Shown here piece after piece: positions 1,211 to 53,795 of a stretch of DNA of 64,000 bases. The notes below the pieces were generated by a model. The model saw only the letters and a program-made list of their open reading frames with translations, made no database searches and was not told where the DNA came from. Source of the stretch: Saccharomycopsis phalli (Eukaryota > Ascomycota > Saccharomycetes > Ascoideales > Saccharomycopsidaceae); contig CP073212.1 in NCBI GenBank assembly GCA_020342235.1, positions 1,426,001 to 1,490,000 on the forward strand, read 5' to 3'. Positions within the stretch are counted from its first letter, which is position 1, and every line of letters starts with the position of its first letter. Position numbers and translations under genes: made by a program.

Positions 1211-3670
1211 AAGATGGCATTACCGCATGATGACCAGGTGAAATTATTCGGCGATACCTTTTACCCACAGATTTCTGTGGGTGAAAGCCTTTCCTCGAAC
1301 ACCTTCACCCCGCACAAAGTTGATAGCAACTCTATAAGCCCAATAACCAAAGAGGAGATATATAACACCCTACGCTACTTGAAATTAAAGAAGGCCCCAG
1401 GGCCGGACAGAGTAACGGTGGGGCAGATCAGAGAACTATGGAAAGGATCCAATTTCCTGGACCAACTTGAAGCCATCTACAATGCATGCCTCTCCTTAGG
1501 CACATGCCCGAACCAGTGGAAGGAAAGTATCACAGTAGTGATCCCCAAACCGGGTAAACCTGATTACAACAAAGCCAAGGCTTATCGACCGATAAGTCTC
1601 TTGAATATCATGGGGAAAATCTTTGAATCAATCATGACGCAGCGTTTGGCAGCTACGATTAGACTACCGAATCAACAGTACGGAGGCCGGGCAGGATACT
1701 GTGCGACTGATGCTGTTATGAAACTCATCAACGATGCTGATATGCACAGAAATAGGCAAAAGAAGCGTGAACTACGACAGTACCAGAAGGGCGTCAGCAC
1801 CCCTCCATCACAGCACAAGCACATGGGTGCAGTGCTAGTCGATATCAAAGGAGCTTTCAACAACATGAACCACCCCATCCTCTTATCGAAGATGAAAGAA
1901 GTTGGGGCCCCGGGCGAAATAATCAATTGGACCAGCAGCTTCCTAACCAATAGGAAAACAAAACTCCGGATCAACAACAAGCTCTCAGAGAAGTGGATAC
2001 CAGTGACCTTTGGAGTGCCTCAGGGCTCGCCGATCTCTCCTATCCTTTTCATGATCTATACCCACGACCTCTATAAGCGACTACGAGACCATAGGGTCAA
2101 AGTAATTGGCTTTATCGATGACATAACCATATACAAGACAAGCGGACAGCGGACAATCCAGAGGGCGCTCTCACAGAGTCTCAGCATATGCCACCAGTGG
2201 GCCCAAGAAAACTACACAGGCTTTGACTACGGGGAAAAACTACAATACATCAGATTCTTTGCAAAATCACGCGGCTCAATTCTCCACCTTCCAGACGGAA
2301 CAATAAAGGAAGAGTCCACAGAGGTGAAGCTACTAGGGATATCCTTAGACTCAAAACTTAGTTTCAGACAACACATTGGGACCATGACACTTCGTTTGAA
2401 GAGAACCACTGGACGGATACAGGCCATTAGTCGCATCACCAATGGAACCCGAGGGAAGACCACGCTAATCTTGTTTAAGACATGCGCGCTACCCCTCATC
2501 ACATATGGACTAGAGATTTTCTACCATAAGCTAACCAAGTCCCAGATCGAAGCCATCAGAGTATGTTACAACATTTCATTGCGTAATGCACTTGGCATGT
2601 TGAAACCGACCCTGACCGGAATCCTCAATATCGAAGCAGGGATGCTTCCGATCCAACTTCTTTTAAAACGAGCCGCAATAGAAAAGTGTGTGAGATGGTT
2701 CACTAACACTAACATAAAAAACCCTCTACAAGATAGCATCAATAAGCAAATAGTACTCGGGGTCACAAACCGGGACGCCTACTCATACCCTCTCATACGA
2801 GAATCCTTTGAAAGTCTTGGCATAAGTGCACCCTACCAAAGATCATTTAAAGAAGCTGCATCAAATATAGACCATCATGCAGAAGTGTTAGTCCAAACCC
2901 ATTCGGAACTGTCAGATAGTCAGAGTTCAGCCCTGCAGGGACGAAAGAAATGGGCCCTTAAAGACCAAATAAACACAAAGATGACCAAGGAATGGCAAAA
3001 ACTAGTGGACACTGGCGAGATTACTCTCCCAGCCCACTATAGAACTCTACGCGGAACGGATTCACCGGTGGTTACCACCGCTAAAGATAAACTCCTACTA
3101 GCCGAGGCCTTAGCCGGCCCAAAGAATATTTTGAGCCTGATAAGCCAACTCCTAAGTGGAAAAAGCTTGGTATCATGTACCATCAAGAAACAATTCAACC
3201 CTGAGTGTGATCCGAAGTGCCCTAGGTGCGACAACCCCTCCCCAACAATATTCCATGACCTATCATGCCCATGTTTAGAGGTATTCAGAACTCAGGAAAC
3301 AATCGGCGAAGGCCTCACAACCAGAGCGCAGATTCGCCGCCTCTTTACAGATGCAAAATCAGTTCATTCTCTTATAGGTTTCTACACGTTAGTGCTGAAC
3401 GGGTAGATTCCTTTTCCTTTTGCAGCACACAAGAAGGGCGGCCGGGCAGGTAGTCCCCCTCGGGGGGCGAGACTCCATAGCCCTTTCTGAGTCATTTCTC
3501 TTAAACAGTTTCTTAAAGATCAAGTCGAAAGTTTTTATCCCCATTCAAAGGGTTTTCTCTCGACTCCAACATTAGCGGCGCCGTCCTTAGTTTTTTAGAC
3601 GGTGAAATATCAATCTCACCCTTCTGGGGAGCCTAGTATAGCTATAGAAGTAAATAAACATTATTATTAT
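1211..3670 (+). mobile_element. LINE (non-LTR retrotransposon), 5'-truncated, RT frame intact
   Basis: The element is bounded by perfect 12-bp direct repeats (1199-1210, 3671-3682). It holds one long reverse-transcriptase frame, about 260 bp of 3' untranslated sequence and a short TTA-repeat tail at about 3660-3670. The left end falls 3 bp before the first ATG of the frame and no endonuclease domain precedes the RT, so this is most simply an insertion truncated within ORF2. There are no terminal repeats. The 3' end has a hairpin (CCGTC 3581-3585 with GACGG 3598-3602) followed by GCCTAGTATAGCTATAG; both recur in two relics at 57.4 and 61.3 kb. The exact duplication and the unbroken 730-codon frame suggest a recent insertion. 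The clade (I/Tad-like or other) is not settled from sequence alone. Confidence 0.92.
1214..3406 (+). CDS. LINE reverse transcriptase (ORF2 remnant)
   Basis: A 730-residue protein. RT motifs in order: KKAPGPDRVTV near residue 58, AYRPISLLNIMGKIFE near 122, motif A VLVDIKGAFNN near 207, motif B GVPQGSPISPILF near 267 and motif C FIDD near 301, where most LINEs have F/YADD. KLLGISLDSKLSF follows. Near residues 662-688 is a C-terminal cysteine/histidine cluster (CDPKCPRC, then HDLSC) like those ending many LINE ORF2 proteins. Neither an AP-endonuclease domain before the RT nor an RNase H domain after it is visible. An in-frame TAG lies at 1196-1198, so the frame does not extend left. Without its endonuclease this copy is probably unable to move by itself, although RT activity cannot be excluded. 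Confidence 0.93.
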   Translation: MALPHDDQVKLFGDTFYPQISVGESLSSNTFTPHKVDSNSISPITKEEIYNTLRYLKLKKAPGPDRVTVGQIRELWKGSNFLDQLEAIYNACLSLGTCPNQWKESITVVIPKPGKPDYNKAKAYRPISLLNIMGKIFESIMTQRLAATIRLPNQQYGGRAGYCATDAVMKLINDADMHRNRQKKRELRQYQKGVSTPPSQHKHMGAVLVDIKGAFNNMNHPILLSKMKEVGAPGEIINWTSSFLTNRKTKLRINNKLSEKWIPVTFGVPQGSPISPILFMIYTHDLYKRLRDHRVKVIGFIDDITIYKTSGQRTIQRALSQSLSICHQWAQENYTGFDYGEKLQYIRFFAKSRGSILHLPDGTIKEESTEVKLLGISLDSKLSFRQHIGTMTLRLKRTTGRIQAISRITNGTRGKTTLILFKTCALPLITYGLEIFYHKLTKSQIEAIRVCYNISLRNALGMLKPTLTGILNIEAGMLPIQLLLKRAAIEKCVRWFTNTNIKNPLQDSINKQIVLGVTNRDAYSYPLIRESFESLGISAPYQRSFKEAASNIDHHAEVLVQTHSELSDSQSSALQGRKKWALKDQINTKMTKEWQKLVDTGEITLPAHYRTLRGTDSPVVTTAKDKLLLAEALAGPKNILSLISQLLSGKSLVSCTIKKQFNPECDPKCPRCDNPSPTIFHDLSCPCLEVFRTQETIGEGLTTRAQIRRLFTDAKSVHSLIGFYTLVLNG

Positions 3671-6070: not shown

Positions 6071-6322
6071 ATGTCAAATATTGCCGAGACTTATAAGCTG
6101 TTGAATGATACAGAAAAGGCGTTGGATTGTGTAGATGAATTGCTTGATTCAATAGATGAGAACATGAACCAGTTGTTGCTGGCTATTGAGGGCGGAATGG
6201 ACCCTGAAGTTGCAAGAAACGACCCAAAGTTTCGGCATTTGATGGACTTGACAAACGATATACATGCCAATGTAAAGGCCCTTGAAAAAGAAAATGAGGA
6301 GAGACAGGAGCAAATAAAATGA
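6071..6322 (+). CDS. small coiled-coil protein, 83 aa, not identified
   Basis: An 83-residue acidic protein, almost wholly helical with heptad spacing of Leu/Ile (YKLLNDTEKALDCVDELL; FRHLMDLTNDIHANVKALEK) and a charged tail. No signal peptide, membrane span or Cys motif. Size and character fit subunits of small helical complexes such as BLOC-1 or the DASH kinetochore ring, but I do not recognise a specific family. The ATG, the divergent position 45-108 bp from WBP1 and the biased codons argue that it is real rather than chance. Confidence 0.65.
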   Translation: MSNIAETYKLLNDTEKALDCVDELLDSIDENMNQLLLAIEGGMDPEVARNDPKFRHLMDLTNDIHANVKALEKENEERQEQIK

Positions 6323-11023: not shown

Positions 11024-11520
11024 TTATTCAGTACGTACTATCTTCACCCCAGTTTGTTTCTACGGTTAGTCCCTTCTATACTCAATAATACTTACCTTCC
11101 AATTGTCAAACTCTTTATGGGTCAGAACCAACTCCTTGGACAATGCATCCAACGCCTTCATTATCTAAGTTAGAAAACATTCTGAACATTCCATACTCAC
11201 ATTGTCGGCCTTGACTGTTAACACGGGCTTGGTTTTCTCCACAGTCTCTGATATAAGAATACCACCAACCATTCTATAAGTCTTGCGGTCTTCTGGGGCC
11301 TTTTCCAAAGTATCAATGACGATTCTGGGTTAGCATGTGGGTGAATAGCGGAGATATGCTTACAAATGTTCGTCGTAATCCTGGCGCAATTGGCTGATTT
11401 TATCTGATAATTGGTTTATCGTAGACTGGAAGTCATTGTATCTTTCCTGGAGCTCTAATGTTAATAAAGCGGTTAGACGCAGCTGGACTCACCTTTTTGC
11501 TTTTCTTCTTTGCTCGACAT
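11024..11520 (-). CDS. PFD2/GIM4: prefoldin subunit 2, five exons with four introns of 36-39 nt
   Basis: Subunit of the hexameric prefoldin chaperone that passes nascent actin and tubulin to the TRiC/CCT chaperonin. I assembled it by hand on the minus strand. Exons: 11493-11520, 11364-11454, 11201-11324, 11096-11164, 11024-11059, total 348 nt or 115 residues. Introns are 38, 39, 36 and 36 nt; all start GTGAGT or GTAAG and end AG, with CTAAC, or TTAAC in the first, close to the acceptor. The spliced product reads MSSKEEKQKELQERYNDFQ, then DEHLIVIDTLEKAPEDRKTY and RMVGGILISETVEKTKPVLT, then KELVLTHKEFDNWK. It matches yeast Gim4 (DEHTIVIKTLKDAEPTRKCY, RMIGGALVES). All exon phases close exactly. 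Unspliced, the gene is invisible as a long frame. Confidence 0.9.
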
Positions 11521-11674
11521 GTTGAACTGCCGTTGATGAAAATTTACGTATTTATGATTATGTAAGCGGCCTACTGTATGCTGGGTGAATGCATAAATGT
11601 GGATTTCCAATGGAAGTATAGGTGTGGTTGTTTAACTTCAATGTACGTTATTAGTATTGCAGGATAGCAAATAT

Positions 11675-11780
11675 TATGTTACTATGTTACCAAATACTAT
11701 GTTACTATGTTACCAAATACTATGTTACTATGTTACCAAATACTATGCTACCATTACCATGTACTATGTTACCAACTTAC
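11675..11780. repeat. 23-bp tandem repeat
   Basis: Three perfect copies of a 23-bp unit (starts 11675, 11698, 11721) containing TATGTTACTATGTTACC, followed by decayed copies. Confidence 0.88.
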
Positions 11781-12050
11781 TATCGTGCCAAGCTACCGTC
11801 TTATTATTATCGTTGTAATGAAAAAGCAGAAAGGTTTACCCTAAAATTCTGTTTACCGTCTGTTCCGCTTGCAGGAAATGGTCTAGCCAAGTCCATTTCC
11901 ACAGCACAGTAACGCCGCGTTTTCTCATGACTCTAATCCTTGTCAAGCTCTTCATTGCTCTCGTTGAAACTTTGTCTTTTTTGATTCAATATCCTAGTCA
12001 ATGGCAATGACCTAACCAAGTCCATTTCCTTGGGCCCAAGAAGTCTTACT

Positions 12051-12138
12051 TCAGATGTAAATAGTCAGATTATTATTTGAATAGTCAAGCGAATATATTT
12101 CGCTATTTTACCACTCGTATCCTAGTTACTATATTACA
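12051..12138 (-). repeat. dispersed repeat, copy B (inverted relative to A)
   Basis: Its reverse complement is nearly identical to 6436-6523 through AGTAACTAGGATACGAGTGG and GACTATTCAAA. A and B thus form an imperfect inverted pair about 5.5 kb apart. Confidence 0.78.
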
Positions 12139-12144
12139 ATCGTA

Positions 12145-12346
12145 CTATGTACTATTATCTTACTGTTTTATTATCACACTGTCTTATTATCTTATTATCT
12201 TATTATCTTACTGTCTTATTATTTTACTGTCTTATTATCTTACTGTCTTATTATTTTACTATCTTATTATTTTACTGTCTTATTATCTTACTGTCTTATT
12301 ATCTCACTGTCTTATTATCTCACTGTCTTATCTTATTATCTCACAT
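12145..12346. repeat. pyrimidine-rich tandem array downstream of ADI1
   Basis: About 200 bp built from CTTATTATCTTACTGT and variants with periods of about 8 and 16 bp. It ends about 60 bp beyond the ADI1 stop codon. Confidence 0.85.
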
Positions 12347-15692: not shown

Positions 15693-16513
15693 AAGCCCTG
15701 GATGAAATGATAATGTACAGAACGTACGGCAATGACTGAATACGTGCAGGCTGTACGGTATCCTGCATTAAAAATTGTGTGCATTTACACTATGCATGAC
15801 TTGTATAGCAATTGAAATTTGCTTGCAGCTTATGATACTTTAGATGACGTAATTTACATATTCTGATAATATATCGTCACATTTACTGTTTGTTTCTGTA
15901 GCTATTAGTTAATTTAGTTCATTTGAACCTTCACTATTTCGGATTTCCTTCACCGTTTCTTGTCCTTTACCGTTCCTGATTGGCGTACGGCTCAACTAAG
16001 CGAAACTCTACAAAGGGGCTGAAACTTGCTAAAAACTTGCAACTTGTTTATCCACAGCATTGTCGATCCGCTAGTTTAATCAGCTACTAGCTATTGGCCA
16101 CAGCCTTTGGTTTTTGCTTTGGCTCTCAAATCTCCATTATTCTGCACTCTTCTGGAAACACTTTCTGGAAACACTTCTCGAGGTCTAACGACATGGTTAA
16201 ACAGATACATTATCGGTGTCTTGTATCTACCAGAGAATCAAGCAATAATATGATTTGAATATTGACTGCCAAAATGCTTTATCGATAGCTCGACAAGTTG
16301 GGCACCATCGAACATCTTATAAGGTTCACATTATCTGAAAAGATGATAATACTACCTGCGAATGTACAAGGATATCTTGATACCTAACCGAGTGGTGGAC
16401 ATGCACCATTTATTTAAAAACAATAGGAATCAACGGTAGACAATGCCAACAGGACCCAAAAAGACCACTATATGAAGAGTTGGACCGCGAGTTTACAGAT
16501 ACTTACCATAGTG

Positions 16514-16598
16514 CAATATACTAACCAAGACATGAGTAAGTGAAATAGCTAAACTATCTTTCAGCTATTCAAAGAAAAGTTTAACTGTTTACATTTGA
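16514..16598 (+). repeat. dispersed repeat, copy D (diverged)
   Basis: TATACTAACCAAGACATGAG, then GTGAAATAGCTAAACTATCTTT, then CTATTCAAAGAAAAGTTTAACT, in the same order as copy A. Old copy. Confidence 0.6.
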
Positions 16599-17059
16599 GC
16601 AAGAGATTCGTACGTTTGGAATAATGCAAGTATACCTGATTTAATCGACTCCATTAAGAGAACCCGTCTACAAGAAAATAATAACTATAAAGGAGGGACA
16701 TTTTCTGTTATGGGATAAACAAGTATTAAATACACTTTGCTATTGATTCAATTGTTCAAGTTTAAAGGAACAGTCAAATACATAGGCTTGTATTCTTTAG
16801 TTTAAAGTATGTCTTCTTCTTAACTTAACCACGCAAATGATAATCACTTATTATAACACTGATGAAACCGAAGTCCAATCAATAAACTGAAGACCTATGT
16901 GAGTAGCAGTCTCTCTACTCTGTTCGCGACCTTGCACTGGTAGATGGTAGATAAACAAATACCAGATAAATATAATGAGCACAAGGATGTACGTAGGTAA
17001 TAGCGATAGTACCTGACTATGGTACTAATGTAAAGTTATATATATTTAAACTAAGGTGT

Positions 17060-17119
17060 AGTATAGTAGCTAAGATACATGTTGATAAGATAGTTAGAAT
17101 ATATTCGCTTGACCTATTA
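17060..17119 (+). repeat. dispersed repeat, copy E (diverged, short)
   Basis: GTATAGTAGCTAAGATACAT, then GATAGTTAGAATATATTCGC, then TTGACCTATT, matching the first 60 bp of copy A. Confidence 0.6.
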
Positions 17120-17458
17120 GCGGGGCGAGATTGGCTATATAAGTGGTGACGGAGTCAGTAAAGGAGAGACGCGAACGTACGTCACGGATGCCTTAGTATT
17201 GCCCCAACTGGTCAAAGGGATGTGTTTAGGGCAATTATCTAATACTAATCGTGTGAGTTTGAGTCTTGTATCAGAAAGAATTAAGGTAGGTACGGACTTT
17301 ATTACATAAGGATTAAAATATGTCAATATATTTCTTTGTATATCCACGCATTTTACATTCTCAATCTTGTACTACCATAATCAATTCATGTTTCATGGAG
17401 GGATAGATCAACAGTCTTGTTTCTAGTATTGCGTAGTCCATCGACCTTGTGGTTGATC

Positions 17459-17487
17459 TTTTGTATCATACCCTGTATGATACAAAA
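17459..17487. repeat. perfect 13-bp inverted repeat with 3-nt loop
   Basis: TTTTGTATCATAC (17459-17471), loop CCT, GTATGATACAAAA (17475-17487). No mismatch. No gene on either side to make it a terminator. Confidence 0.9.
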
Positions 17488-18203
17488 TGCCAATCAACAA
17501 CTGAAGTCCAAATAATAAACTCATTCCAACATGCCATGATGACCAGAGTAAAACTATATACATTAAGAAGATCTGCTCCCTTGCCCCATTGCATCAGACT
17601 TAAAAAGCCTTCTATTCATACTAATAAAATGAAAAGATAATGAGATGTCTCGACATAACATTACTTCATGAGAATCCGAAATAACAAAAGCTTGAAATCA
17701 CTATTAGATAGGAACCGCTTTCATCGGTTTGGCGTTGCTATTGATTATGATACAGATGATACAACTAGTCTGTTTAAACTGCATCTACATACGAGATTTC
17801 TAGGATTTGCGGTACATTGGTGAAATGTACTTGTCCTACCAGAGCTCTTGGTCCCATGACATTGATGATAACCGGATGTGGGAGTATTACCCTGCCCGAA
17901 CCATTCTTATAAGAGGGGCTTTATCCATGCAAGATATTTTGTTCAATCGTTTTACACAGAATGTTTATTACGGTAGCGATTACCGTATTGTACGATAATT
18001 ATATTAGCTACTGATACTTCTGTGCTCGGAACTATGTTATAACTATGACACAAACCAAGATCATGGGCTTTAAGTATTGAGTTTTTCCTTGTGACTCCTC
18101 ATACTCCAAGGTTTTTCATTGCCACCTGACGAAGGCCTAAGGTACTTGAATATCATGTGGCCTTTGCCAAGATCAATTTTATATTTCTAGTAATTTATTT
18201 TAT

Positions 18204-18525
18204 TTGGAATGTCAGTCATCATAGAAATGGTTGATTAGAGTATCCTTTTTGTGTATCCATAATGTGGAGCATTTTATTTGTGGAGCAATTTAGTTGCGCA
18301 TCCATTAAGTGGACCACTTCATTTACTTGGAATGTCAGTCACCATATAAATGGTTGATTAGAGTATCCTTTTTGTGTATCCATAATGTGGAGCATTTTAT
18401 TTGTGGAGCAATTTAGTTGCGCATCCATTAAGTGGACCACTTTATTTACTTGGAATGTCAGTCACCATATAAATGGTTGATTAGAGTATCCTTTTTATTT
18501 ATATCCACTTTGTGGAGGGCCTTTA
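18204..18525. repeat. 123-bp tandem repeat, about 2.6 units
   Basis: Units begin at 18204, 18327 and 18450 with TTGGAATGTCAGTCA. The first two are almost identical; the third diverges after GAGTATCCTTTTT. This is the longest repeat unit in the window. Confidence 0.9.
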
Positions 18526-20146
18526 TTTTATCTTTTTTTTTGAGTACGCACTATTTTATTAACAGCCACAGATCTAGATTGTTAGTGTGTGTACTATGGT
18601 ATACCATGTTCAAGTGACGACTTGAAATTATGTTAGGATCGTGCTTTTACTAGCGATGAGCGGGACGTGTTCGTAACAGAGCATACGTACGTTATCTGAC
18701 CTAGTAGGGTGGCTAGTTGGTTGGTCCCAGTTGGCAGCTTCAACTGCTGAAAACTGACGTTCTTATCATCACCACCTGCAAACTGCTATTCACCGATAAT
18801 TGGTTTTCAGTTGGGGTGCAGTAGAAGTAAAGTACATTAGGATCTTAACGGTCAGTGTTTTAGTTTTTGCTTTATAACTAATCATTGCCTTCAGACGTTG
18901 GACTATCATGAGGAAGTGCACCCAATATTGATAGAGGAATGTTCTGTATAGTACGGGTTTTTTAGTGGGTTATGATTTCGGTCATGAGTCCTACTCGAAC
19001 TGCAGTGGGCTGAGCGCTTCTGGCCCCTGTGGAAAGTCTCCTTAGAGAGTTCCTTCCCGTCGAATGATTCGCGCGAACAGAGTGATCATCTTTAGCAAAG
19101 TAATGCCTTCGGCCAAAGACATTAGTTTGCTTTAAAGAAGGTGTGATGTTGTGATAGCCAGACGTACTAGGTTATAAGGCTTGGTATTACTTGTGAAAGA
19201 TTAGACAATCAGTCACTAACCGGAAAGTAGCTGCTATAGTTACATGAAGGTGAATGTCGGTAATTACCTGGTTTTTTGACCAAGACCAATCTGCTTGAAC
19301 AACTATATAAGACCAGGTAGAAAACTACCTGGGACGCCTAACGTTAAGGATCTCTGGGATGTTTTATCAATCATTCAAATGCAAAGGAACAACAAAATAT
19401 ATAGATTATTTATAGTCCTGATTAACGCGCAAAATTTACTGCCAGCATTATCAGAGCCGGTGATCATGATAGTTCACAACGTAATAGGCTTCTGGACATT
19501 TTTCTTAACCGGAATAGTAGCTATTATGGTTGGCTACATGATGGTTAATTCCAGTAATAGTCTAGTTTTCTGCCAAAACAAAAGGGTAAACAGTCCATTA
19601 CTTTTCATTCTGGTTTTTAGTTGAGAATGTCATTTTTTATAGTTACAGTCTTGTTTATATTTGATATATGATCTTTGTTTGTGCTTAAAATACAAACCTT
19701 GGAGGCTTGGTTAAATCTGCAAGTTGCCAAATTACTTTTAGTCTCTTGATAATCTCAACGGTGATCGGCCTAGGTTAAGGCTGAAGTACAGCAAAGCCTT
19801 CAAAGATTTGCCTGAGAAATTTCATGGACCGGTTTCTACAACATGAGCCAGTTTTCCAGAGACCAAAGGAGTTTTCTCCTTTAGAGTGGTTGCGATAGCT
19901 CGACAAATAAAATTTACAGCAGCCACAACCGTCAATAGTTAAATTAAGACTTTGTTTGAGTAACCCAAACAAGACATATTTTGTAAGCTGCGCAAATTGT
20001 CCAAAAATTGTACAAAATACATACACTGGATCGGCAAAAACGCAACTAAATTGATTGTAGTTTGTCAGCGTGAAACACGCACACACACGTGATCAACATG
20101 GCACGTAACCACTATATCTTTTTGGATTCCGTCTAGTTAAGTAGCA

Positions 20147-25013: not shown

Positions 25014-25475
25014 TCAGGGATACCCATTTCGAACCTTCTTCCAGTACGCGGTAGAGTCGCCGACGGCCTTGGGCGACATGGAAGGACTGTACTTTGACCC
25101 GGAGGCCTTGCCTTTTTTCTCCATTGTCATCAATTCCTTGTAATACTGGTGCGCGGTGTTTGGAAATGCCAACGGACTACTGCTGCTGCCGTGGGACGTT
25201 GGCAGCGTGTTGTTGTTGATTGCTGATAGCGAGTAATCGTGATACGAGACCGGAGACAGGCGGCTGGTGGGCGAAATGACGCCGGAGCCCTGGGGGTCGT
25301 AGTATTTTCCGTATTGGACAAAATGGGCACTGGCCCGGCGAGAACTTGTGTTGGTGTTGACGTACAAGTCCTTTTGCTGGCACTCCTTGGAGCAGTAAAT
25401 TCCATTGACCATGTCGACAATGCGACGTTCGCAGTATGAGCAGTATTCGTTGAAGCTGGAGTCGTATTCAAGCAT
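25014..25475 (-). CDS. Ecl1-family small zinc-binding protein
   Basis: 153 residues from the ATG at 25475; there is no ATG farther upstream in this frame. The N-terminus holds EYCSYCERRIVDMVNGIYCS followed by KEC, the C-X2-C...YCS-X2-C signature of the Ecl1 family. Those proteins extend chronological lifespan and link sulfur or zinc starvation to the transcriptional response in fission yeast. The rest is Ser/Thr/Asn-rich and disordered, with SPTSRLSP and SPSMSP suggesting proline-directed phosphorylation. It is divergent from the GH76 gene. The family call rests on the cysteine motif alone. Confidence 0.7.
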   Translation of the reverse strand: MLEYDSSFNEYCSYCERRIVDMVNGIYCSKECQQKDLYVNTNTSSRRASAHFVQYGKYYDPQGSGVISPTSRLSPVSYHDYSLSAINNNTLPTSHGSSSSPLAFPNTAHQYYKELMTMEKKGKASGSKYSPSMSPKAVGDSTAYWKKVRNGYP

Positions 25476-29713: not shown

Positions 29714-30037
29714 ATGTCAGCACTAGCGGCTTATAGAAACGCTCTCCGGGCGACCCGAATTGCATTTAATCACGATACTGCTGTTCTTGCGGCCTCGCGG
29801 GACAGAATCCGCCAGGGGTTCCGGAACCCGGACCAGTCTAAGCCGGTGGAGCAACGAGTGGCTGAGATGAATGAGATTCTGACGTTTCTCAAGCGCAACG
29901 TGGTCCAAGGGACAAAGAAGGAGGGGAAGTATGCGCTAAATATTCATAAATACACGGAGTTGGGCGACAACGAGAGTTTGAAGAGTCCGATTCCACTTGG
30001 CCAGGGCGGATGTTGCGGTGGAAGCAAGGGTACATAG
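29714..30037 (+). CDS. MZM1: LYR-motif assembly factor for complex III (Rieske protein chaperone)
   Basis: 107 residues from the ATG at 29714. Mzm1 (LYRM7) binds the Rieske subunit in the mitochondrial matrix and stabilises it until insertion into complex III. AAYRNALRATRIAFNHDTAV near the N-terminus carries the LYR-type motif as AYR and matches yeast Mzm1 (NAYRHGLRATRIAFRNDAEV). Further on, FLKRNVVQG and YALNIHKYTELGDNESL align with FLRRNLVQG and YHLNIHKDTELGDNETI. The C-terminus GGCCGGSKGT is short and Gly/Cys-rich, unlike yeast. Confidence 0.93.
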   Translation: MSALAAYRNALRATRIAFNHDTAVLAASRDRIRQGFRNPDQSKPVEQRVAEMNEILTFLKRNVVQGTKKEGKYALNIHKYTELGDNESLKSPIPLGQGGCCGGSKGT

Positions 30038-30510: not shown

Positions 30511-31194
30511 CTACTCCAACTCGCCAAACACCCCTTCGTCTGCATCGTAGTCCTCCTCCTCCTTGGCCACCTCGCTCTTCTCCTTCTTCAGAAGATGGTT
30601 CTCGTTTCTTGGCGCATCCACGTACCCACTGGTGATTGGTTTCAGGTAACTCAGCGGCGGCGACAACATCTGGTCTGGTGACTTGGAAAGCGTAGGCGAC
30701 ATGTGCTGGCTGGTGTGGCTATGCTTGTCATTTTCGTTCATCGACACTAGAATGCTGGCAGCCTCCAACAACTGGACCTGCTGGTGCTTGGAGATTAACA
30801 ACTTCTTGGTGTAGTTCCACTCGGCAGTATGCTCCCAGAGATGCTTGGCGAGCGACGAAATGTGCTTGTATCCTTTTCCACAGGCCTCACACTTGAGTTC
30901 CTGCTTCACCCTCCCGCTCTCCCCCTCGCTGATCCGCCGTACCACAAACTCCCGCGTCAAGAGCGGCACAGTGTCCCCCGTCTGGTGGTGGTTTTTCGGC
31001 ATGCTATTGTGGAACCGAGGGTTGTAGCTCTGTGACTGCCGGTTCTCGGGAATATTGTATGGCTGGGCGTTGATGGAATTCGACCGTGACCGTGACGGAA
31101 TCGCATACGGCGACAGCGACGAATTCCGGCGATGGCTCGCAAAATGGTGCTGCGTGTTGGCGTTTGCATTGTGGGTAGACGAATACGACGTCAT
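30511..31194 (-). CDS. single C2H2 zinc-finger protein, function unknown
   Basis: 227 residues, mostly disordered (Asn/His/Ser-rich N-terminus with SRSRSNS; acidic C-terminus EEEDYDADEGVFGELE). One classical C2H2 finger, CEACGKGYKHISSLAKHLWE followed by H (C-X2-C-X12-H-X3-H), lies near residues 102-122 and is followed by TAEW. Fungal proteins with this finger and an HT-[AP]-EW tail exist but I cannot give a gene name. A single finger can bind DNA, RNA or protein, so calling it a transcription factor would be a guess. Confidence 0.75.
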   Translation of the reverse strand: MTSYSSTHNANANTQHHFASHRRNSSLSPYAIPSRSRSNSINAQPYNIPENRQSQSYNPRFHNSMPKNHHQTGDTVPLLTREFVVRRISEGESGRVKQELKCEACGKGYKHISSLAKHLWEHTAEWNYTKKLLISKHQQVQLLEAASILVSMNENDKHSHTSQHMSPTLSKSPDQMLSPPLSYLKPITSGYVDAPRNENHLLKKEKSEVAKEEEDYDADEGVFGELE

Positions 31195-35352: not shown

Positions 35353-36627
35353 CTATGAGGCAGTGGCTAAAATCTCAGGGCTGAGGCTTTGGAAGATCTT
35401 ACTCAAAGAGTAACGAGGGCGTTTTGAGTATTGGTGCACGGCTTTTGCCATGGTAGAAACTTCCGGAACCTCGGGACACCGTCGGTTAGCTAGCGACGTG
35501 TACTGGTCTAGCAACTGCTCAATAATAGGCCAGCAGGTCTTTTTGTGAGTGCCACACAGTCTAAGTAGCATTGAAAGACATCCGCACTGGAGCATTTGGA
35601 ACCGGTCAAACGAGGTCGAATTTTCCACAAGGAGCAGTATTATGGAAATAACCGGCGTCCGCATGTTGCTTTTTGTGGCAAGGACCTTGCCAAAGCCAGC
35701 AAAAAGCTGCGGAAGCTTGTCAATGTAGATGATGCTCATGAGGGCTGAGCTGTCACGTGACTGGATAATGGTGCTCAAGATGGATGTGATTGCGTCAGTG
35801 TGGTTTTCGCCGTAGAAATCAATCAAGAGACCAATTACAGTGCTGTTGCTGACGAGTAGCTTTGCTAATCGACCATCTAGTATAATGAGCTGGCTGATAA
35901 TGTCAACGATTGTCAGCACACGATGCTTGTCTCCAAAAAGCAGCTCGCACAAGATCTGGACAAGGATATCGTTGATTTCAATGTTTAGAAGCGACTGCAC
36001 GTAGTCCGGGTGGTGTGCAATGTTCTGGAAAAGCCCCAACAACGACTCCACACAGTCCTGGTCACATGTGATGTTGAGCAATTTCGCACACAACTTCATG
36101 GTTTCATGGCTGCCAATAAGTCGCTCCGGGTGCTTCTGGTATATGGTCGATATCAAGTCAACGCTTGTCAAATGGAAATTCGGCTCGTGACGGTTCAATG
36201 AGAGAAGCGTGCAAAGCAAAATGTCAAGTGATTTCGTGTCCATGTCCACATGGTTAAGACACTTGAGGATACTGTTGATCATAATACACTTTCTGTATCT
36301 TCCCTCGGCGGAAACTCTGAGGATTTCCACGACGTTTGTCACAATCCCAAGTTCCAGCATGCATTGGCTGATCCTTTGGTCCTGGAACTGGATGACCTCT
36401 TTGAGGGCCAAAATCCCATGGAGCTTTGTCCATGAAGCGTCACAGAGCACTGCCTGGTTCAATAGTTGCATCAGCAACATTGGATTGTCGAGAATCTGAG
36501 CCTTTGCATGTTCCTGTTTGGTTTCGTTGACAAGAGCACGGTATATGTTCACAACGATTTTCTCCAAGTCTATGGTGCTGTTATTTGCACAAGTTGGTGT
36601 TATTGGGGTATTTACCAAGACTTCCAT
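35353..36627 (-). CDS. helical-repeat (armadillo-like) protein, unidentified
   Basis: 424 residues. Leu/Ile-rich amphipathic helices run throughout in the spacing of ARM/HEAT-type solenoids (SLDILLCTLLSLNR; MKLCAKLLNITC; CVESLLGLFQNIAHH; ILVQILCELLF; AITSILSTIIQS; MLQCGCLSMLLRLCG). No signal peptide or membrane span. The C-terminus is basic and Ser-rich (YSKRPRYSLSKIFQSLSP). I do not recognise a family; a scaffold role is only what such folds usually have. A single long frame over 424 codons with a sensible ATG makes the gene certain. Confidence 0.8.
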   Translation of the reverse strand: MEVLVNTPITPTCANNSTIDLEKIVVNIYRALVNETKQEHAKAQILDNPMLLMQLLNQAVLCDASWTKLHGILALKEVIQFQDQRISQCMLELGIVTNVVEILRVSAEGRYRKCIMINSILKCLNHVDMDTKSLDILLCTLLSLNRHEPNFHLTSVDLISTIYQKHPERLIGSHETMKLCAKLLNITCDQDCVESLLGLFQNIAHHPDYVQSLLNIEINDILVQILCELLFGDKHRVLTIVDIISQLIILDGRLAKLLVSNSTVIGLLIDFYGENHTDAITSILSTIIQSRDSSALMSIIYIDKLPQLFAGFGKVLATKSNMRTPVISIILLLVENSTSFDRFQMLQCGCLSMLLRLCGTHKKTCWPIIEQLLDQYTSLANRRCPEVPEVSTMAKAVHQYSKRPRYSLSKIFQSLSPEILATAS

Positions 36628-37348: not shown

Positions 37349-39577
37349 TTATAAACTATTCTTCTTGGTAAATGAATTTCTAAAAATTGTTTTCATGTTT
37401 CGTAAACTTCTTGGACTCTCCATTTTCTCCTGCTTTAAGCTCTCATGCAACCTCTGTGAATTGCCCAACCTCAATTGATTGGATGGAATCGTGGTAAACA
37501 TCTTTGCCCCTGGAGATGTGCCAGTAACAGATTGGTAAGAGTCCTCGACCGAGTCTTTGGCCACAGGATGTAAAATCTCAGGCAGTTCCTCGGGCAGCAT
37601 CTCGGGAAGTTCTTCTGGAAGCTGGCGCTCGACTCGTGGCGACAAGGACAGAACCCCCTTGGCAACAAAATTGTTGGAGTTCAACGTCTCAGTCAGACTA
37701 GACATGTACTCCTTCAAATGGTCATCGTGGAATTTCTTTTCGGCCATATCCTCGCTGATTGTTGCGTCATCCTTGACGCTTTTCCGCCGCTCCATCACTT
37801 CGCGGCGAAGCGGTGTTATCAAGGCATCAACTTCGCCAGGGTGGTATGATTCCAACACCGAAGACTCGGTTACGTCGTCGGGAACAAGGTTCAGAAACCG
37901 TTCACGGTGCCGGACAAAGTGCTGTTCTCTTTCCAGCTCTTCCTTGGATGCTGCTTCTGTGTTCTTGGCCTTGAGCAACTCGTGGAGCATGATATAGTCG
38001 TTGCGCAACTCGTTGATTTCCTTATTTTTCGAGTCGATCAACAGCCGCAACACGTGTGTGTGTTCTTTCAACAGAAGATCAATCAACTGCTTGTTGTGCT
38101 CGTTGTTTTGGGTAATGGCTTCTCTGACTAGGTCTTCGTTTGCGGCGATCTTCATGGCAATATCGTTGTCGATCAACTGGCGGTCGGTTCGGCTTTGGTA
38201 GCGAACGAGCAATTTCCATTTGGTGTCGAGGGACTCGAATTTGAAGTTGAGATCGGCTAGTTTTGCAGTGAGTGTTTCCACCTGGTGCTGAAGTGATTCG
38301 TTTTCAGTTGTCTCCTTTTCCTGGTTTACTTTGTCATTTAGTTTGTCATTCACTTTCGCATGATTTAATTTCTTGTCATTTACTCTCTCATCATTTAATT
38401 TCTTGTCATTTACTCTCTCATCATTTAATTTCTTGTCATTCACTTTCTCATTCACTCCCTCATCATCATTCAATCTTTCGTCATCATTCATTCTCTCATT
38501 CACAGTTTCATTCACTTTCTCATCCACCTTCTCATCCACTCTTTCATTCACAGTCTCATCATTCAATCTCTCATAATCATTCACCCGGTCACTCACTCTA
38601 TCATTCACCCTCCCACCATTGACCTTCTTTACATCCTTCACATTCAATTCATTTCCTTGTACCATGGTCTCCTCTGGAATTTTCTCAATCACATTATCCA
38701 TTTGTACCTGGTACAGAGCCGAATGCCTGCGAACCTGACTGCTGATAACCCGGTCCTGCCACTCTTTAAACGCCTTGAGCTTCATGTCCTGCTTGCTGAG
38801 CTGATCATTCACCCTGTAAATCTCCTGGTTAATCATCCCCAACTTGCTGATCATCTCATGGGTTATGCCCTGCTTGCTGTGCAGCTCAAAAACATCGCTT
38901 CCTGTTGACCGCCGCTTGCTAATGGAAAAAGTCAGGCTGGCAATCGACAGGGAGCTCAAGTTGTGTGCCGAATCATCAGCCACCAACCCATTGGCCGTTG
39001 ATTCATCGGCCACAACTTCGCCCAGAGTGTTATTGGCTGGCACATGTAAACCCTCAAAGTCAAAACGCTCGGACGAGACGGATTTCCGTGGTGAGATTGT
39101 CTTTTTGGGAGAATCAGATGGCCCCGGTGTGTCGCTCTCAGGGACACTGTGAAGTCGACTGGGCTTATTGGTGGTGCCAATTGTACCGGCCTTGACTTGC
39201 CATTGGTTGTCCTTTATTTGCCACTGGTTATCCTGGATTGCTTGCTGGGTTTTGTCTTCTGTTTCCGCTGCGCACGTCGTGTCGTCTATCGTTCCAGCTG
39301 GCTCGTTGTTTCTGTCAGCCGAGACCGGCTCTACATTTTTGACTCGTTTCCTGGAGTCAATACAGTACTTGACCATGAGCGACTCCAAGTTGGTTATCCG
39401 ACGGTCGTAATCATCCTGGATTATCTTGACACGGCTCTCGATGATTCCCTGGATCACGGTGATGTTGATTTGCTCGTCAAAGGTATCAAAGTAGTTGGAG
39501 CTGCTGCTGGACTCTGGCGACCACTTTTGGCACTTGAAGCTGCCCGGGAACTCACTGACTTTGGTTTTACTATACAT
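37349..39577 (-). CDS. coiled-coil protein with an Asn-Asp/Lys-Leu repeat tract, unidentified
   Basis: 742 residues. The N-terminus has a Ser-rich stretch and a short coiled coil (IIESRVKIIQDDYDRRITNL). Residues 80-220 are disordered with SP sites (SPKKTISPRKS). About residues 325-415 form a degenerate repeat of VND/LND/VNE with E, R, K and D (KLNDERVNDKKLNDERVN), encoded by 38330-38600. A long coiled coil follows (about 415-560). The C-terminal third contains a Pro-Glu-Leu repeat (LPEELPEMLPEELPEIL) and a basic end. This architecture resembles spindle-pole or cortical scaffolds, but I recognise no family. Confidence 0.75.
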   Translation of the reverse strand: MYSKTKVSEFPGSFKCQKWSPESSSSSNYFDTFDEQINITVIQGIIESRVKIIQDDYDRRITNLESLMVKYCIDSRKRVKNVEPVSADRNNEPAGTIDDTTCAAETEDKTQQAIQDNQWQIKDNQWQVKAGTIGTTNKPSRLHSVPESDTPGPSDSPKKTISPRKSVSSERFDFEGLHVPANNTLGEVVADESTANGLVADDSAHNLSSLSIASLTFSISKRRSTGSDVFELHSKQGITHEMISKLGMINQEIYRVNDQLSKQDMKLKAFKEWQDRVISSQVRRHSALYQVQMDNVIEKIPEETMVQGNELNVKDVKKVNGGRVNDRVSDRVNDYERLNDETVNERVDEKVDEKVNETVNERMNDDERLNDDEGVNEKVNDKKLNDERVNDKKLNDERVNDKKLNHAKVNDKLNDKVNQEKETTENESLQHQVETLTAKLADLNFKFESLDTKWKLLVRYQSRTDRQLIDNDIAMKIAANEDLVREAITQNNEHNKQLIDLLLKEHTHVLRLLIDSKNKEINELRNDYIMLHELLKAKNTEAASKEELEREQHFVRHRERFLNLVPDDVTESSVLESYHPGEVDALITPLRREVMERRKSVKDDATISEDMAEKKFHDDHLKEYMSSLTETLNSNNFVAKGVLSLSPRVERQLPEELPEMLPEELPEILHPVAKDSVEDSYQSVTGTSPGAKMFTTIPSNQLRLGNSQRLHESLKQEKMESPRSLRNMKTIFRNSFTKKNSL
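38330..38600 (-). repeat. in-frame minisatellite in the coiled-coil gene
   Basis: The plus strand shows TTTAATTTCTTGTCATT and ACTCTCTCATCA units repeated with periods of 15-30 bp, all multiples of three, coding for ERVND/KKLND units. Confidence 0.85.
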
Positions 39578-47950: not shown

Positions 47951-50341
47951 ATGGTGTCGTCATTAATGTCGTTACGACGCTCGTCGTCGTTGACCAGAAG
48001 CGACAGCAAAAAAAACGCATCCAAGGACAGTGTCCTTAGTCTTCTCAGTCCCAAGATGGACGAATCGTTGCGGCGATCCAACAGCAACTCGTCGGACCAC
48101 TCTGTTGCCCGGTCCAACACTCCGTCGCCGGTGGATGAGTACGAAGACGAGGACGGCGATGTTTTGGTCCAGGACCCCCCTTTGCTGCCTCCAAAGGAGC
48201 TTCACCCCGGACGGTTGTATGCGCTCTACGAGTTCTCGGGGCCTGATCCGTCGCAGTGCGACCTTGAGTACGACGACGCAGTGGTGCTTTTGAACGATGA
48301 CGATTCGTACTGGTGGTTGATCAAGCGCACCAAGGACGGCAAGATTGGGTTTGCGCCGGCAGAGTGTCTAGAGACGCCAGGGGAGCGGCTTGCGCGGCTC
48401 AATTGCTGGAAGAACGAGGAGCTCGAGCGGATCGCCAAGGAGGAGAGCAGGAAGCGGCTGAAAAGCTTGCTCAGTCTCTCGCGCAAAGCCAGCAAGTTGA
48501 GCAGCAGCGACGCGGTCTCGCGCAAGAAAAACGGATCCAAGACCGTGGTGTTTGCCGAACAGGTCACGTATTCTGCCCCAGAGTTTGTGAGTGACAGCGA
48601 GGACGAGTACGAATTTGACGACATTCCGCCGCCAATCGATGACGTGGTGGATTACAGCGACGATGTGGACGATGATAGCGATACAGGGCCGTTGGTGGTG
48701 CTGAAGATCCGCAAGAAGACCGAGGGCCTGAAGATGTTCAAGGCAAAAAACTTGACAATCGACAAGCTGACCAAGGAGCAGCAGAACAAGCTCCTCGAGC
48801 CGACGCCGACGTCGCTGAAGCGCAGCAGCATGATCAGCATCTCCGACGACGACGCATCGCTCTACAACCGTACCTCAGTGCTCTACGACGAACGTCGGCT
48901 GCACGACTTGGAGTCGTTGCTCGCCCAGGCGGTTAGCAGCCCTGCGATTCCACCGGGGAAGCGCAGCACCTCAACGTCGACAATTAAGACAATGTCGCTG
49001 AGTTACTCCATTGGGGACTATTCGCCGTCGTCGTCAGAGTTTGAGAGCGACACCCAGACGCCTACCAAGTTCACTGCGCTCAGCTCGCTCCAGCTCTCAA
49101 ACAGTACCATCAACGGACTCAAAGGCAAGTTGAGCAGTACTAGCAGCATCAAGAAGGTTATCCATGACGACGACGACCTCGACGAAATCGCCCCGCTTCT
49201 GCCGTCAAACTTGTTTGACAGCGACATTGCCCTGGACACCCTTTCGGAGATTGACAAGCAGTTGGAGAACCTCAAGAAGCCGGGCAAGTTGCTCCTCAGT
49301 CCGTCAAAGAGCCTTTCCAAGTCGAAGAACAACCGCCTCCAGACCGATTTGGACCTCAACATTGACGATATCGACGGCGATAATGATACTTTGGGCAGAA
49401 CTCTGCCCATGTCCCCAATACGCGCACATCCGCTGTTGGGCTCAGGGACGTTTGACCAGGGTCAGGGTGGTCCGTTTGACGGCCAGACGGGATTATTTGG
49501 TCGATCGCAAGGTCAGCAAGGTCAGAGTGAGGCGCTGTTTCAGTCTAAGGAGTATTCGCAGTATCCAGAGCAGTTTCAGTCCAAGGAGTATTCGCAGTAT
49601 TCGGAGGAGTATTCGCAGCATCCAGAACAGTTTCAGTCCAAGGATGTGCAGTCTCAATCCAAGGATGTACAGTCTCAGTCCAAGGATGTGCAGTCTCAAT
49701 CCAAGGATGTACAGTCTCAGTCCAAGGATGTACAGTTTCAGTCCAAGGATGTACAGTCTCAATCCAAGGATATACAGTCTCAGTTAAAAGATATACAGTC
49801 TCAGTCCAAGGCTACACAGTCTCAATCCAAGGATATCCAATCTCAATCCAAGGATATCCAATCTCAGTTCAAGACTACACAGGGCACACAGGGAAAAATC
49901 GCACAGGGAAAAATCATACAAGGCATCGCACAAGGCACACAAACCACACAAACCACACAAACAACACAAACAACACACTCACATGGCCAAAACCAAACAG
50001 CCCCAGACAACCAAAACATCCAGTTGTCCTCCCCAAACTCCTCATTTACTAGCTCCACATCGTCGCTCCAAAAGAAAACAGACAAACAGCCCACGGACTC
50101 ACACATCACACCAGTGACGTCAACCCTGGTCGACAGCGACATACACAAGAATCTCCGACAGCAACTGGACCCTGAGTCCGGATCAAACAGCACAAGCATC
50201 ATCATGAACACCAACGAGTCGTTCAGCAGCTTACTCGAGGACTACCACCCGGACATCAACCAGTTGTTCTACCCGCTCTTCTCCAAGGCCGACGTCTTGA
50301 CGTCCCAGTTGGAGGACTTGAAACGCTTGCTAGTGGGCTAA
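47951..50341 (+). CDS. BUD14: BUD14-like SH3 protein with a heptapeptide repeat array
   Basis: 796 residues. An SH3 domain lies near residues 82-150 (RLYALYEFSGPDPSQCDLEY, then DSYWWLIKR and GFAPAECLE), followed by a conserved basic helix and KTVVFAEQVTY near 197, which resembles the V-x-F PP1-docking element. This order matches Bud14, which directs protein phosphatase Glc7 to polarity sites, restrains the formin Bnr1 and helps anchor microtubules. Acidic stretches (DSEDEYEFDD) follow. Residues of about 545-645 are a tandem array of SQSKDVQ heptads, then Gln/Thr repeats (TTQTTQTTQ). The C-terminus YHPDINQLFYPLFSKADVLT is a conserved-looking block. CTG codons are unusually common here. Confidence 0.8.
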   Translation: MVSSLMSLRRSSSLTRSDSKKNASKDSVLSLLSPKMDESLRRSNSNSSDHSVARSNTPSPVDEYEDEDGDVLVQDPPLLPPKELHPGRLYALYEFSGPDPSQCDLEYDDAVVLLNDDDSYWWLIKRTKDGKIGFAPAECLETPGERLARLNCWKNEELERIAKEESRKRLKSLLSLSRKASKLSSSDAVSRKKNGSKTVVFAEQVTYSAPEFVSDSEDEYEFDDIPPPIDDVVDYSDDVDDDSDTGPLVVLKIRKKTEGLKMFKAKNLTIDKLTKEQQNKLLEPTPTSLKRSSMISISDDDASLYNRTSVLYDERRLHDLESLLAQAVSSPAIPPGKRSTSTSTIKTMSLSYSIGDYSPSSSEFESDTQTPTKFTALSSLQLSNSTINGLKGKLSSTSSIKKVIHDDDDLDEIAPLLPSNLFDSDIALDTLSEIDKQLENLKKPGKLLLSPSKSLSKSKNNRLQTDLDLNIDDIDGDNDTLGRTLPMSPIRAHPLLGSGTFDQGQGGPFDGQTGLFGRSQGQQGQSEALFQSKEYSQYPEQFQSKEYSQYSEEYSQHPEQFQSKDVQSQSKDVQSQSKDVQSQSKDVQSQSKDVQFQSKDVQSQSKDIQSQLKDIQSQSKATQSQSKDIQSQSKDIQSQFKTTQGTQGKIAQGKIIQGIAQGTQTTQTTQTTQTTHSHGQNQTAPDNQNIQLSSPNSSFTSSTSSLQKKTDKQPTDSHITPVTSTLVDSDIHKNLRQQLDPESGSNSTSIIMNTNESFSSLLEDYHPDINQLFYPLFSKADVLTSQLEDLKRLLVG
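49630..49880 (+). repeat. 21-bp in-frame minisatellite in BUD14-like gene
   Basis: About twelve 21-bp units coding SQSKDVQ or SQSKDIQ, preceded by QSKEYSQYPEQF-type units from about 49550. The unit length is a multiple of three, so copy-number change would keep the frame. Confidence 0.92.
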
Positions 50342-51095: not shown

Positions 51096-51933
51096 TGGGT
51101 TGAGGAAGTTTGGCGGTGTTGTACATTGGGTATTTGGAGGTTTGGGTAGGGTTATCATTGCACGTCACCGAGATCCATTTATATCAGTTGTGGTTGTTGA
51201 TGTAGAGAACAGTGAATTATAGTTGCGTGGTTATTGATGTAAATAATATAGTTTAATTATATTCAGTTGCGTGGTTATTGATGTAAATAATTACTTTTAT
51301 TTTCTAATCTCTTTGGTGTTGATTACATACATTTTGATCTTGTCATGTTATCAGTCACGTTATCATGCCGTTTTATCATGTCATGCTATCATCTGTCATT
51401 TTATTATCATACCATTTTATTATCTTGCAATGTTATAATGCCATTTTATCATTTTGTCATGCATCATCTATCACGTTATCATCTTGTCTTACCATGTTAT
51501 CATCTCATCTTCTTCTTATCCCATGTCTCATTTCATCTTCTTCTTATCCCATGTCTCATCTCATCTTCTTCTTATCCCATGTCTCATCTCATCTTCTTCT
51601 TATCCCATGTCTCATCTCATCTTCTTCTTATCCCATGTCTCATCGCATCTTCTTCTTATCTCATGTCTCATCTCATCTTCTTCTTATCCCATGTCTCATC
51701 GCATCTTCTTCTTATCTCATGTCTCATCGCATCATATCTCAGTCATTATCCACCCATCTTACCTGCTATGCCATCCTTACCCCTTATCTCCCTATCCAAT
51801 CATTCTTCCTCCACCATTGACGTGCACCCCCTTGTGGATCACCATCTGAAACCACTTAATATGCCACCCTGCGTCATTTCGAAAAATGGTAGGCACCATT
51901 CACTATATAAACCCACGATTTCTCACTCTTGCC
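51096..51933. other. intergenic, 28-bp minisatellite and IME4 promoter
   Basis: GTGGTTATTGATGTAAATAATA direct repeats near 51224-51290, the 28-bp array at 51503-51735, and TATATAAA near 51902, 25-30 bp before the likely IME4 start. No gene. Confidence 0.6.
51503..51735. repeat. 28-bp pyrimidine-rich tandem repeat
   Basis: About eight units of TCTCATCTCATCTTCTTCTT plus ATCCCATG. One strand is nearly all pyrimidine apart from CATG and CA steps. Confidence 0.92.
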
Positions 51934-53477
51934 ATGCTTCTACTCATTGACTTCCTTCTCACATGCGATATAAGCCAGCCGTTTCTAAACCGCGATTTGC
52001 GGTGTATCCACTACTATCACGGCAAGGAGCTCCAACAGGAAAGTTACGCTGGGTTGGAGAATGCAGTCAACCAGCTACGAGAAATCTCGCCGTCCATGAT
52101 CGAGCTTGCCGGAGCAAAAATCACGTTTGTCAGCCAGTTTGAGTTGCAAATACTAAAAAAAAAGCTACAAGGCGAGCCAATGGCCAGCGTTAGCCGTCCA
52201 GTGTGCCGGGATTTGCTTAGTCTTTTGAGCATTACAAACGAATATGACGAGTTCAAGGCGCGATTGGAGTCGCCTACGGCTCGGCAGGTGCTTTCAAAGG
52301 AATATTTCCACCTCACGACTGAGGTGAAGCCGTTTATTGAGGTGTGCCACAACCATGGGCACGCCAAACAAATCTCGGAGGTGTGCACGTTCAAAAACGG
52401 GCAAATCTACTTTGCGAATAAGGCGCTTGACGGGATGAAGTTTGGCAAGTGCCTTGAGTCGAAGATCCACTTTATTCCGATTATCAAAGGGAAGGCACTA
52501 GGCAAGGGCCGCAACTGCATTGGATCGACGTCGACGGATCTTTCGCTCGGCGACTGCTCGTACTTGGACACGTGCTTCAAGCTGAACAGCTCGTGCCGGT
52601 TTATCCACTACTACAAGTGGGTGCCAAAGGAGTACTTGAAGAGCCAGACTGCACAGGCGCACAAGAGTAACCAGGAGATTCGGCAGGTGGAGGTTGTGGC
52701 TGATTTTTGCTGGAGTGGGTCTGTAGGCGACAATATCCGACAGCCGGAGGCGGCGCAATGGATGAAGTGCGACATCAACAAGGTGAACTTTGCGTCGCTC
52801 GGGAAGTTTGCGGCGATAATCGCGGATCCAAACTGGAAGATCCACATGCAGATGCCGAATCCGAACTCGAACGACAGCGAGCTTTTGAACCTCAAGGTGG
52901 ATGTGCTCCAGGACGAAGGGATTATCTTTCTCTGGTGCACGGGCCGAGCGGTTGAGAACGGCAAGAAGTTGCTCCGGCATTGGGGCTACGACACGTACAG
53001 CGAGGTGATTTGGATCAAGACGAACCAGTTGGACCGGACGATCTGTACTGGGCGGACCGGCCACTGGTTGAACCACTCGAAGGAGACGTTGATTATTGGG
53101 TAAGTATGAGCGGGTGAAGGGCGACTGACCACAGCAAAAAAGGCGAGCCCAAGTGGCTCAATGCGGCGATTGACATTGACATTATTATTTCGTCGGTGCG
53201 GGAGGCTGGGCGGAAGCCGGACCAGGTGAGTATAATTGATTGTGGGCGAGCTAACTGGAGTTGTATGGGATGATTGACCGGCTTGTAGGGCGGCATGCGC
53301 GGAAGTTGGAGTTGTTTGGGCGGAGCCATAATTGTCGTGCTGGGTGGTTGAGTAAGTAATTTTTTGAGGGGCGTTCTAACGGTAGCGTTGGGCAACGAGT
53401 TGAAGGATACTCGGTTGAGTGTAGGGCAGGGTGTGGGAGGGTCTGGATATGAGGGAAAGGCGAGATATAGGTGTTGA
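51934..53477 (+). CDS. IME4: mRNA N6-adenosine methyltransferase Ime4, four exons with introns of 34-35 nt
   Basis: MT-A70-family enzyme (METTL3 homologue) that writes m6A on mRNA during meiotic entry in yeast. Exons: 51934-53099, 53135-53225, 53261-53351, 53386-53477, total 479 residues. Introns: 53100-53134 (35 nt), 53226-53260 (35) and 53352-53385 (34). Blocks matching yeast Ime4: [25 protein letters not shown]; the catalytic motif as DPNW (DPAW in yeast, DPPW in METTL3); [35 protein letters not shown]; and, across splice junctions, [25 protein letters not shown] and RAGWLTLGNEL. I take the ATG at 51934, after a TATA-like box; 51886 is also in frame. Retention of intron 1 gives a stop within four codons. 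The C-terminus is much shorter than yeast's. Confidence 0.92.
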
Positions 53478-53479
53478 GA

Positions 53480-53795
53480 ATGAGAGAAGGAAGGCATGTG
53501 TTGAGATGAGAGAAGGAGAGTATGTGTTGAGAATGAGGAAGGAAGGTATGTGTTGAGATGAGAGAAGGAGAGTATGTGTTGAGATGAGAGAAGGAGAGTA
53601 TGTGTTGAGAATGAGGAAGGAAGGTATGTGTTGAGATGAGAGAAGGAGAGTATGTGTTGAGATGAGGGAAGGAGAGTATGTGTTGAGATGAGGGAAGGAG
53701 AGTATGTGTTGAGATGAGGGAAGGAGAGTATGTGTTGAAATGAGAGAAGGAAGGCATTTGTTGAGATGAGAGAAGAAAGGCATTTGTTGAGATAT
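53480..53795. repeat. 26-bp purine-rich tandem repeat directly after IME4
   Basis: About eleven units of GAGATGAGAGAAGGAGAGTA plus TGTGTT, starting within 15 bp of the IME4 stop. Confidence 0.93.

Follow-up and report, generated by a model that had tools for sequence, protein, structure and literature searches.

Very short introns predicted in a prefoldin subunit 2 gene and an IME4/METTL3-like gene of a budding yeast

Two genes with short introns and their surroundings

A prefoldin subunit 2 gene (PFD2) occupies positions 11520–11024 on the minus strand of the window, the whole 64-kb stretch of Saccharomycopsis phalli DNA that was analysed, and comprises five exons and four introns (Table 1). 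After intron removal, the coding sequence measures 348 nt including the stop codon and encodes 115 amino acids. The spliced product matches the Pfam Prefoldin_2 profile over positions 2–98 of 106 (E 6.4e-19, 68.3 bits; cut-off, 27.6 bits), and its residues 15–112 align without gaps to human PFDN2 (E 6.9e-15). In a search of solved chains with the PFD2 protein, both of the matches at E ≤0.001 are named prefoldin subunit 2. The original prediction of a five-exon prefoldin 2 gene with introns of 36–39 nt is confirmed in its coordinates, strand, exon count and lengths. The introns are located at 8, 34, 70 and 90% of the coding sequence and are thus not confined to its 5´ end.

The junctions of PFD2 were assessed by scoring GT/GC–AG pairs of at least 18 nt against human PFDN2, with the other junctions held fixed. 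Donors within a distance of 60 nt were considered, as were acceptors as far as 60 nt past the proposed one; pair counts include the proposed pair, and pairs yielding fewer than 60 amino acids were dropped. The proposed pair ranks first of 12 scored for intron 2, first of 86 for intron 3 and first of 84 for intron 4, the last one narrowly (170, with the runner-up at 169 and the retained intron at 162). For intron 1, among the 6 pairs listed of 13 scored, one GC-donor pair scores higher and four tie with the proposed pair, which is the only one of these six with a GTRAG donor. The ties arise because this intron is upstream of the region aligned by homology. The putative first junction rests not on homology but on the reading frame, the consensus donor and branch motif, and the start codon; no other in-frame ATG was found between the stop codon of intron 1 and the conserved part. 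It had been claimed that every junction is backed by phase and by the match to Gim4, which was examined here through human PFDN2 and Pfam and not through yeast Gim4. Homology bears this out for junctions 2–4 but not for junction 1.

A second gene with short introns, which had been missed by the original prediction, is an IME4/METTL3 gene at 51886–53477 on the plus strand, where three introns of 35, 35 and 34 nt are needed. In the unspliced ORF (51886–53103, plus strand) the MT-A70 domain breaks off at position 105 of 172 (E 1.7e-27); with the introns removed it is complete, from 1 to 172 of 172 (E 6.9e-48). The spliced protein matches METTL3 up to residue 474 of 495 (E 2.3e-74) and is closer to METTL3 than to METTL14, with best chains at 2.3e-74 and 1.6e-17, respectively. 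The three introns are found at 82, 88 and 94% of the coding sequence. The catalytic motif of METTL3 is DPPW; in the alignment with the human protein the yeast sequence reads DPNW at this place, and the loop after it differs too. The product appears METTL3-like by sequence, and its methyltransferase activity is putative.

Table 1. Predicted exons and introns of PFD2 and IME4, with positions in the window
Feature	Position	Strand	Description
PFD2 exon 1	11493..11520	-	28 nt; ATG at 11520; basis: frame and start codon
PFD2 intron 1	11455..11492	-	38 nt; phase 1; GTGAGT...TTAAC-ATT-AG
PFD2 exon 2	11364..11454	-	91 nt
PFD2 intron 2	11325..11363	-	39 nt; phase 2; GTAAGC...CTAAC-CC-AG
PFD2 exon 3	11201..11324	-	124 nt
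PFD2 intron 3	11165..11200	-	36 nt; phase 0; GTGAGT...CTAAC-TT-AG
PFD2 exon 4	11096..11164	-	69 nt
PFD2 intron 4	11060..11095	-	36 nt; phase 0; GTAAGT...CTAAC-CGT-AG
PFD2 exon 5	11024..11059	-	36 nt including stop TAA
IME4 exon 1	51886..53099	+	Putative start codon; a later in-frame ATG is possible
IME4 intron 1	53100..53134	+	35 nt; phase 2; GTAAGT...CTGAC-CAC-AG; 1st of 62 scored pairs
IME4 exon 2	53135..53225	+	91 nt
IME4 intron 2	53226..53260	+	35 nt; phase 0; GTGAGT...CTAAC-TGG-AG (GAG acceptor); 1st of 81 scored pairs
IME4 exon 3	53261..53351	+	91 nt
IME4 intron 3	53352..53385	+	34 nt; phase 1; GTAAGT...CTAAC-GGT-AG; 1st of 179 scored pairs
IME4 exon 4	53386..53477	+	Includes stop TGA; no homology covers the final 21 residues

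The window holds 25 counted genes with 32.6 kb of coding sequence, a count that leaves out a LINE-like ORF, ORFs running off the window ends and ORFs overlapping larger ones. The seven introns are confined to two of these 25 genes (0.21 introns per kb), and no such introns were found in the other 23 by scans of limited sensitivity. A codon-based scan for introns of 20–150 nt listed 18 rows and recovered three of the seven described introns, so its sensitivity is low. Its best other candidate, 51025–51104 (80 nt), which has a GAG end and is placed at the end of ORF 50400–51095, was set aside as a matter of judgement. Many candidate donor–branch–AG combinations emerged from a scan extending to 700 nt, and further introns, including longer ones and those in UTRs, may exist in the window. 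Two small ORFs considered as intron-cut, 29714–30037 and 6071–6322, both proved continuous.

A Pfam match above the cut-off was not shown for 7 of the 25 genes: 6071–6322, 29714–30037, 30511–31194, 35353–36627, 37349–39577, 50400–51095 (by 0.1 bit) and 25014–25475, the last of which was outside the search. An RPM2 domain was detected in the window (E 1.7e-13); together with the standard code and the scarcity of introns it points to Saccharomycotina. Among the window proteins scanned with Pfam there was no match to U2AF1, U2AF2 or Prp40, nor was any splicing factor noted elsewhere in the analysis of the window. A tRNA scan (bacterial code) and an Rfam search at gathering score gave no match each over the window; the Rfam result leaves no U1 or U2 snRNA from the window for comparison. 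CUG reassignment was considered and the standard code was kept: CTG is rare (89 of the 9,718 codons in 18 long ORFs), and visual inspection places several at hydrophobic positions, as in an importin-like gene, where CTG plausibly encodes leucine.

Repeats are a further component of the window, with 60 tandem-repeat rows, some of them for the same array. Minisatellites with units of 16–28 nt are located at 11668–12331 and 51492–54098, near both intron-bearing genes, and the array at 53471–53793 starts 4 nt ahead of the IME4 stop codon. An SH3-domain gene (47951–50341) carries at 49627–49873 an array of a 21-nt unit, repeated about 12 times and read through in frame. A 730-codon ORF at 1214–3406 encodes a reverse transcriptase domain (RVT_1, E 5.9e-29) and is LINE-like by our reading. 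The 4.4 kb at 15693–20146 are without a recognised gene; positions 16001–18000, with 36.5% GC, are the most AT-rich of 16 two-kb windows sampled, and a 123-nt repeat is found at 18199–18496. Finally, a 507-codon open frame (54629–56152) runs antisense to the importin-like HEAT-repeat gene (54242–56887), perhaps as a by-product of codon bias.

Shared anatomy of the introns and the level expected by chance

All seven introns begin with a GTRAG donor (GTGAGT in three, GTAAGT in three and GTAAGC in one). Each of these donors has an A at +4, a trait associated with SNRNP27K and METTL16 (PMC10581693). The donors GTGAGT or GTAAG predicted for PFD2 were indeed found there, as GTGAGT, GTAAGC, GTGAGT and GTAAGT. 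Closest to the AG there is a YTRAC branch motif in every case (five CTAAC, one TTAAC and one CTGAC); PFD2 intron 1 has a further possible branch site in a CTAAC that precedes its TTAAC, and the TTAAC, 32 nt from the donor, is the predicted one. The acceptor is YAG in six introns and GAG in the remaining one. The gap between YTRAC and AG is 2–3 nt throughout, and the branch adenosine is intron nucleotide 28–34 in all seven. CTAAC or TTAAC had been correctly proposed as the branch motif of PFD2, but not its end at 5–6 nt before the AG: it is the branch adenosine that is 5–6 nt from the last base of the intron. Retention would bring an in-frame stop codon into six of the seven, a count made without a chance control. 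The U12 donor is RTATCC, and none of the seven introns starts with GTATCC or ATATCC. In the available part of a review, the minor spliceosome is described as lost in all Ascomycota (PMC5499181).

The combination GTRAG + YTAAC + YAG at 28–80 nt occurs at five sites on both strands of the 64 kb, and these are the four PFD2 introns and 53352–53385. With the looser branch motif YTRAY there are 20 sites in the window, taken as a count only. Furthermore, the pattern GTRAG-N18-35-YTAAC-N1-4-AG has six start sites in the window, whereas 200 dinucleotide shuffles average 1.49, an enrichment of about four-fold. Since 2 of the 200 shuffles reach six sites, the motif by itself gives modest support. The rate in the shuffles predicts about 0.006 sites for 497 nt of one strand, where four were observed. 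Four sites within 497 nt of one strand, combined with frame and homology, are not attributable to chance.

Taken on the strength of the sequence, the seven segments are very probably true spliceosomal introns of the U2 type. They would belong to a standard-code yeast with few introns, probably an early-branching budding yeast, whose spliceosome would be tolerant of very short donor–branch spacing. The finding of four very short introns in one gene, unusual for a yeast, is supported and extends to a second gene. It is real, and it represents a variant of ordinary splicing, no new kind of system.

Splicing mechanism and origin of the introns

In human extracts the useful minimum of donor–branch spacing is near 50 nt, and a spacing of 35 nt abolishes assembly on one human substrate in vitro; a donor–branch distance of about 52 nt has been estimated from the structure of the human B complex (all from the accessible portion of PMC6692369). 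By the human in vitro limit, the introns described here would fail unless the machinery differs. Spacings of 28–34 nt would thus point to a more permissive geometry in this yeast, with or without Smu1 and RED. According to the same portion of that study, these two factors are needed when donor–branch spacing is short, and yeast lacks them (PMC6692369); the helpers called upon below may therefore not exist in this species.

The proposed mechanism is that each intron would be recognised as a single unit by intron definition. U1 would pair with the strong donor, while SF1 and the small subunit of U2AF would bind the fused branch/AG block; short branch–AG spacing has been linked to U2AF1 in the consulted part of the review (PMC5499181). 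The spliceosome would then be activated despite a donor–branch gap smaller than the ~52 nt of the human B complex, possibly assisted, where the species possesses them, by factors of the Smu1 and RED type. As six of the seven introns carry an in-frame stop, nonsense-mediated decay would eliminate most of those that are retained. A broader version of this mechanism is put forward tentatively, at somewhat below even chances: nearly all introns of this yeast would measure about 33–40 nt with a fixed donor–branch spacing of 28–34 nt, below that thought to be needed in human extracts, and the spliceosome of this budding yeast would have been retuned, in an otherwise intron-sparse genome, to use length itself as a recognition feature.

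With regard to origin, the introns are rather likely to be old ones kept in two genes and lost elsewhere, for example by gene-by-gene cDNA recombination. Budding yeasts have lost most of their ancestral introns, according to the part of the review available (PMC5499181). All seven introns fall in 2 of 25 genes, and only 13 of 200,000 length-weighted random placements confine them to two genes or fewer, a clumping consistent with an intron-rich ancestor having lost its introns one gene at a time. However, the introns of IME4 are located at 82–94% of the coding sequence, where cDNA-mediated loss should act first, and these 3´ positions do not fit that route; introns in other genes may also have escaped the scans. 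The retention account concerns the origin of the introns and does not conflict with the splicing mechanism proposed above.

Recent gain through the copying of one short, introner-like element would explain the equal lengths, and the inner parts of the introns resemble one another slightly more than shuffled sequences do, with a summed pair score reached by 8 of 300 shuffles. The three best of the 21 intron pairs give p values of 0.011, 0.027 and 0.04, but none of the 21 survives multiple-test correction, and a base composition common around IME4 could yield such a similarity signal. Elsewhere in the window, introns aside, matches extend over only 9–14 nt (E ≥0.32), and the 6-nt intron flanks show no duplication longer than 2 nt by eye. 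An introner-like origin is not favoured by these comparisons and seems very unlikely. Even less credible is the suggestion that the segments are unspliced insertions or frameshifts in pseudogenes: three of the four PFD2 segments (39, 36 and 36 nt) are multiples of three and minisatellites are found near both genes, but every segment has the common donor/branch/acceptor layout and excision restores the frame and the full domain in two unrelated genes.

If spliced as predicted, the seven segments would bear on several questions. How much donor–branch distance is required is a matter of spliceosome structure, and a yeast able to remove 34-nt introns at a spacing of 28 nt would offer a simple natural system for testing the roles of Smu1, RED, U2AF1 and Prp16. 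Their clumping in two genes bears on how yeasts lose introns. The interest of the case hinges on whether the whole genome shares the pattern.

Comparison with known short introns

The lengths observed had been described as near the physical minimum for the spliceosome, which is overstated, as shorter introns of 15–23 nt are in print. Introns of 15 nt in Stentor, 18 nt in Bigelowiella and 23 nt in Trichomonas are reported in the available text of PMC12316389, so 34–39 nt represents no physical limit. In Encephalitozoon, introns range from 22 to 76 nt, as given in the accessible part of PMC3629993.

Among yeasts, Yarrowia lipolytica has a similar layout, with a GTGAGT donor and a branch site and 3´ splice site forming one unit (PMC2911113, PMC2483917; both available in part). 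Its branch motif is separated from the 3´ site by about 1 nt on average (PMC2911113), with a branch–AG distance given as 2 nt (PMC2483917); likewise, the motif is almost fused to the AG in the seven introns described here, with a gap of 2–3 nt in all of them. However, Y. lipolytica introns measure 41 to 3,478 nt in the portion of PMC2911113 available, and none of the seven, at 34–39 nt, reaches that minimum. Compared with those of Y. lipolytica, the introns described here are spread over the coding sequence.

Encephalitozoon cuniculi resembles this yeast in being an intron-poor member of the fungal lineage, with short introns and a conserved donor and branch motif. Its introns average 35.8 nt and carry conserved motifs (PMC2483917, in the part available). 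It differs in being a reduced parasite, with many components of the spliceosome lost and with poor splicing (PMC2483917, PMC3629993, from the same partial texts), with 81% of Encephalitozoon junctions spliced below 50% (PMC3629993). In Cryptococcus neoformans, also a yeast, many introns shorter than 60 nt are removed by a normal spliceosome, but the average intron measures 56 nt, and the few introns below 40 nt are those most often retained (PMC11913375, as far as its available text goes). The short human introns that depend on Smu1 and RED pose the same short-spacing problem at activation, at a limit of about 50 nt versus the 28–34 nt found here (PMC6692369, in part).

No budding yeast with a comparable intron range was found in the literature searched, in which subscription papers are thinly covered. 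As far as these searches reach, it is unusual for all the introns observed in a genome of the budding-yeast type to be as short as these. In the available part of their work, Irimia and Roy described intron-poor lineages as having regular motifs and the genomes with the shortest introns as intron-dense, and they named two lineages, E. cuniculi and Trichomonas, whose introns are both short and regular (PMC2483917). The yeast described here would join these two lineages in having introns that are sparse, regular and short at once.
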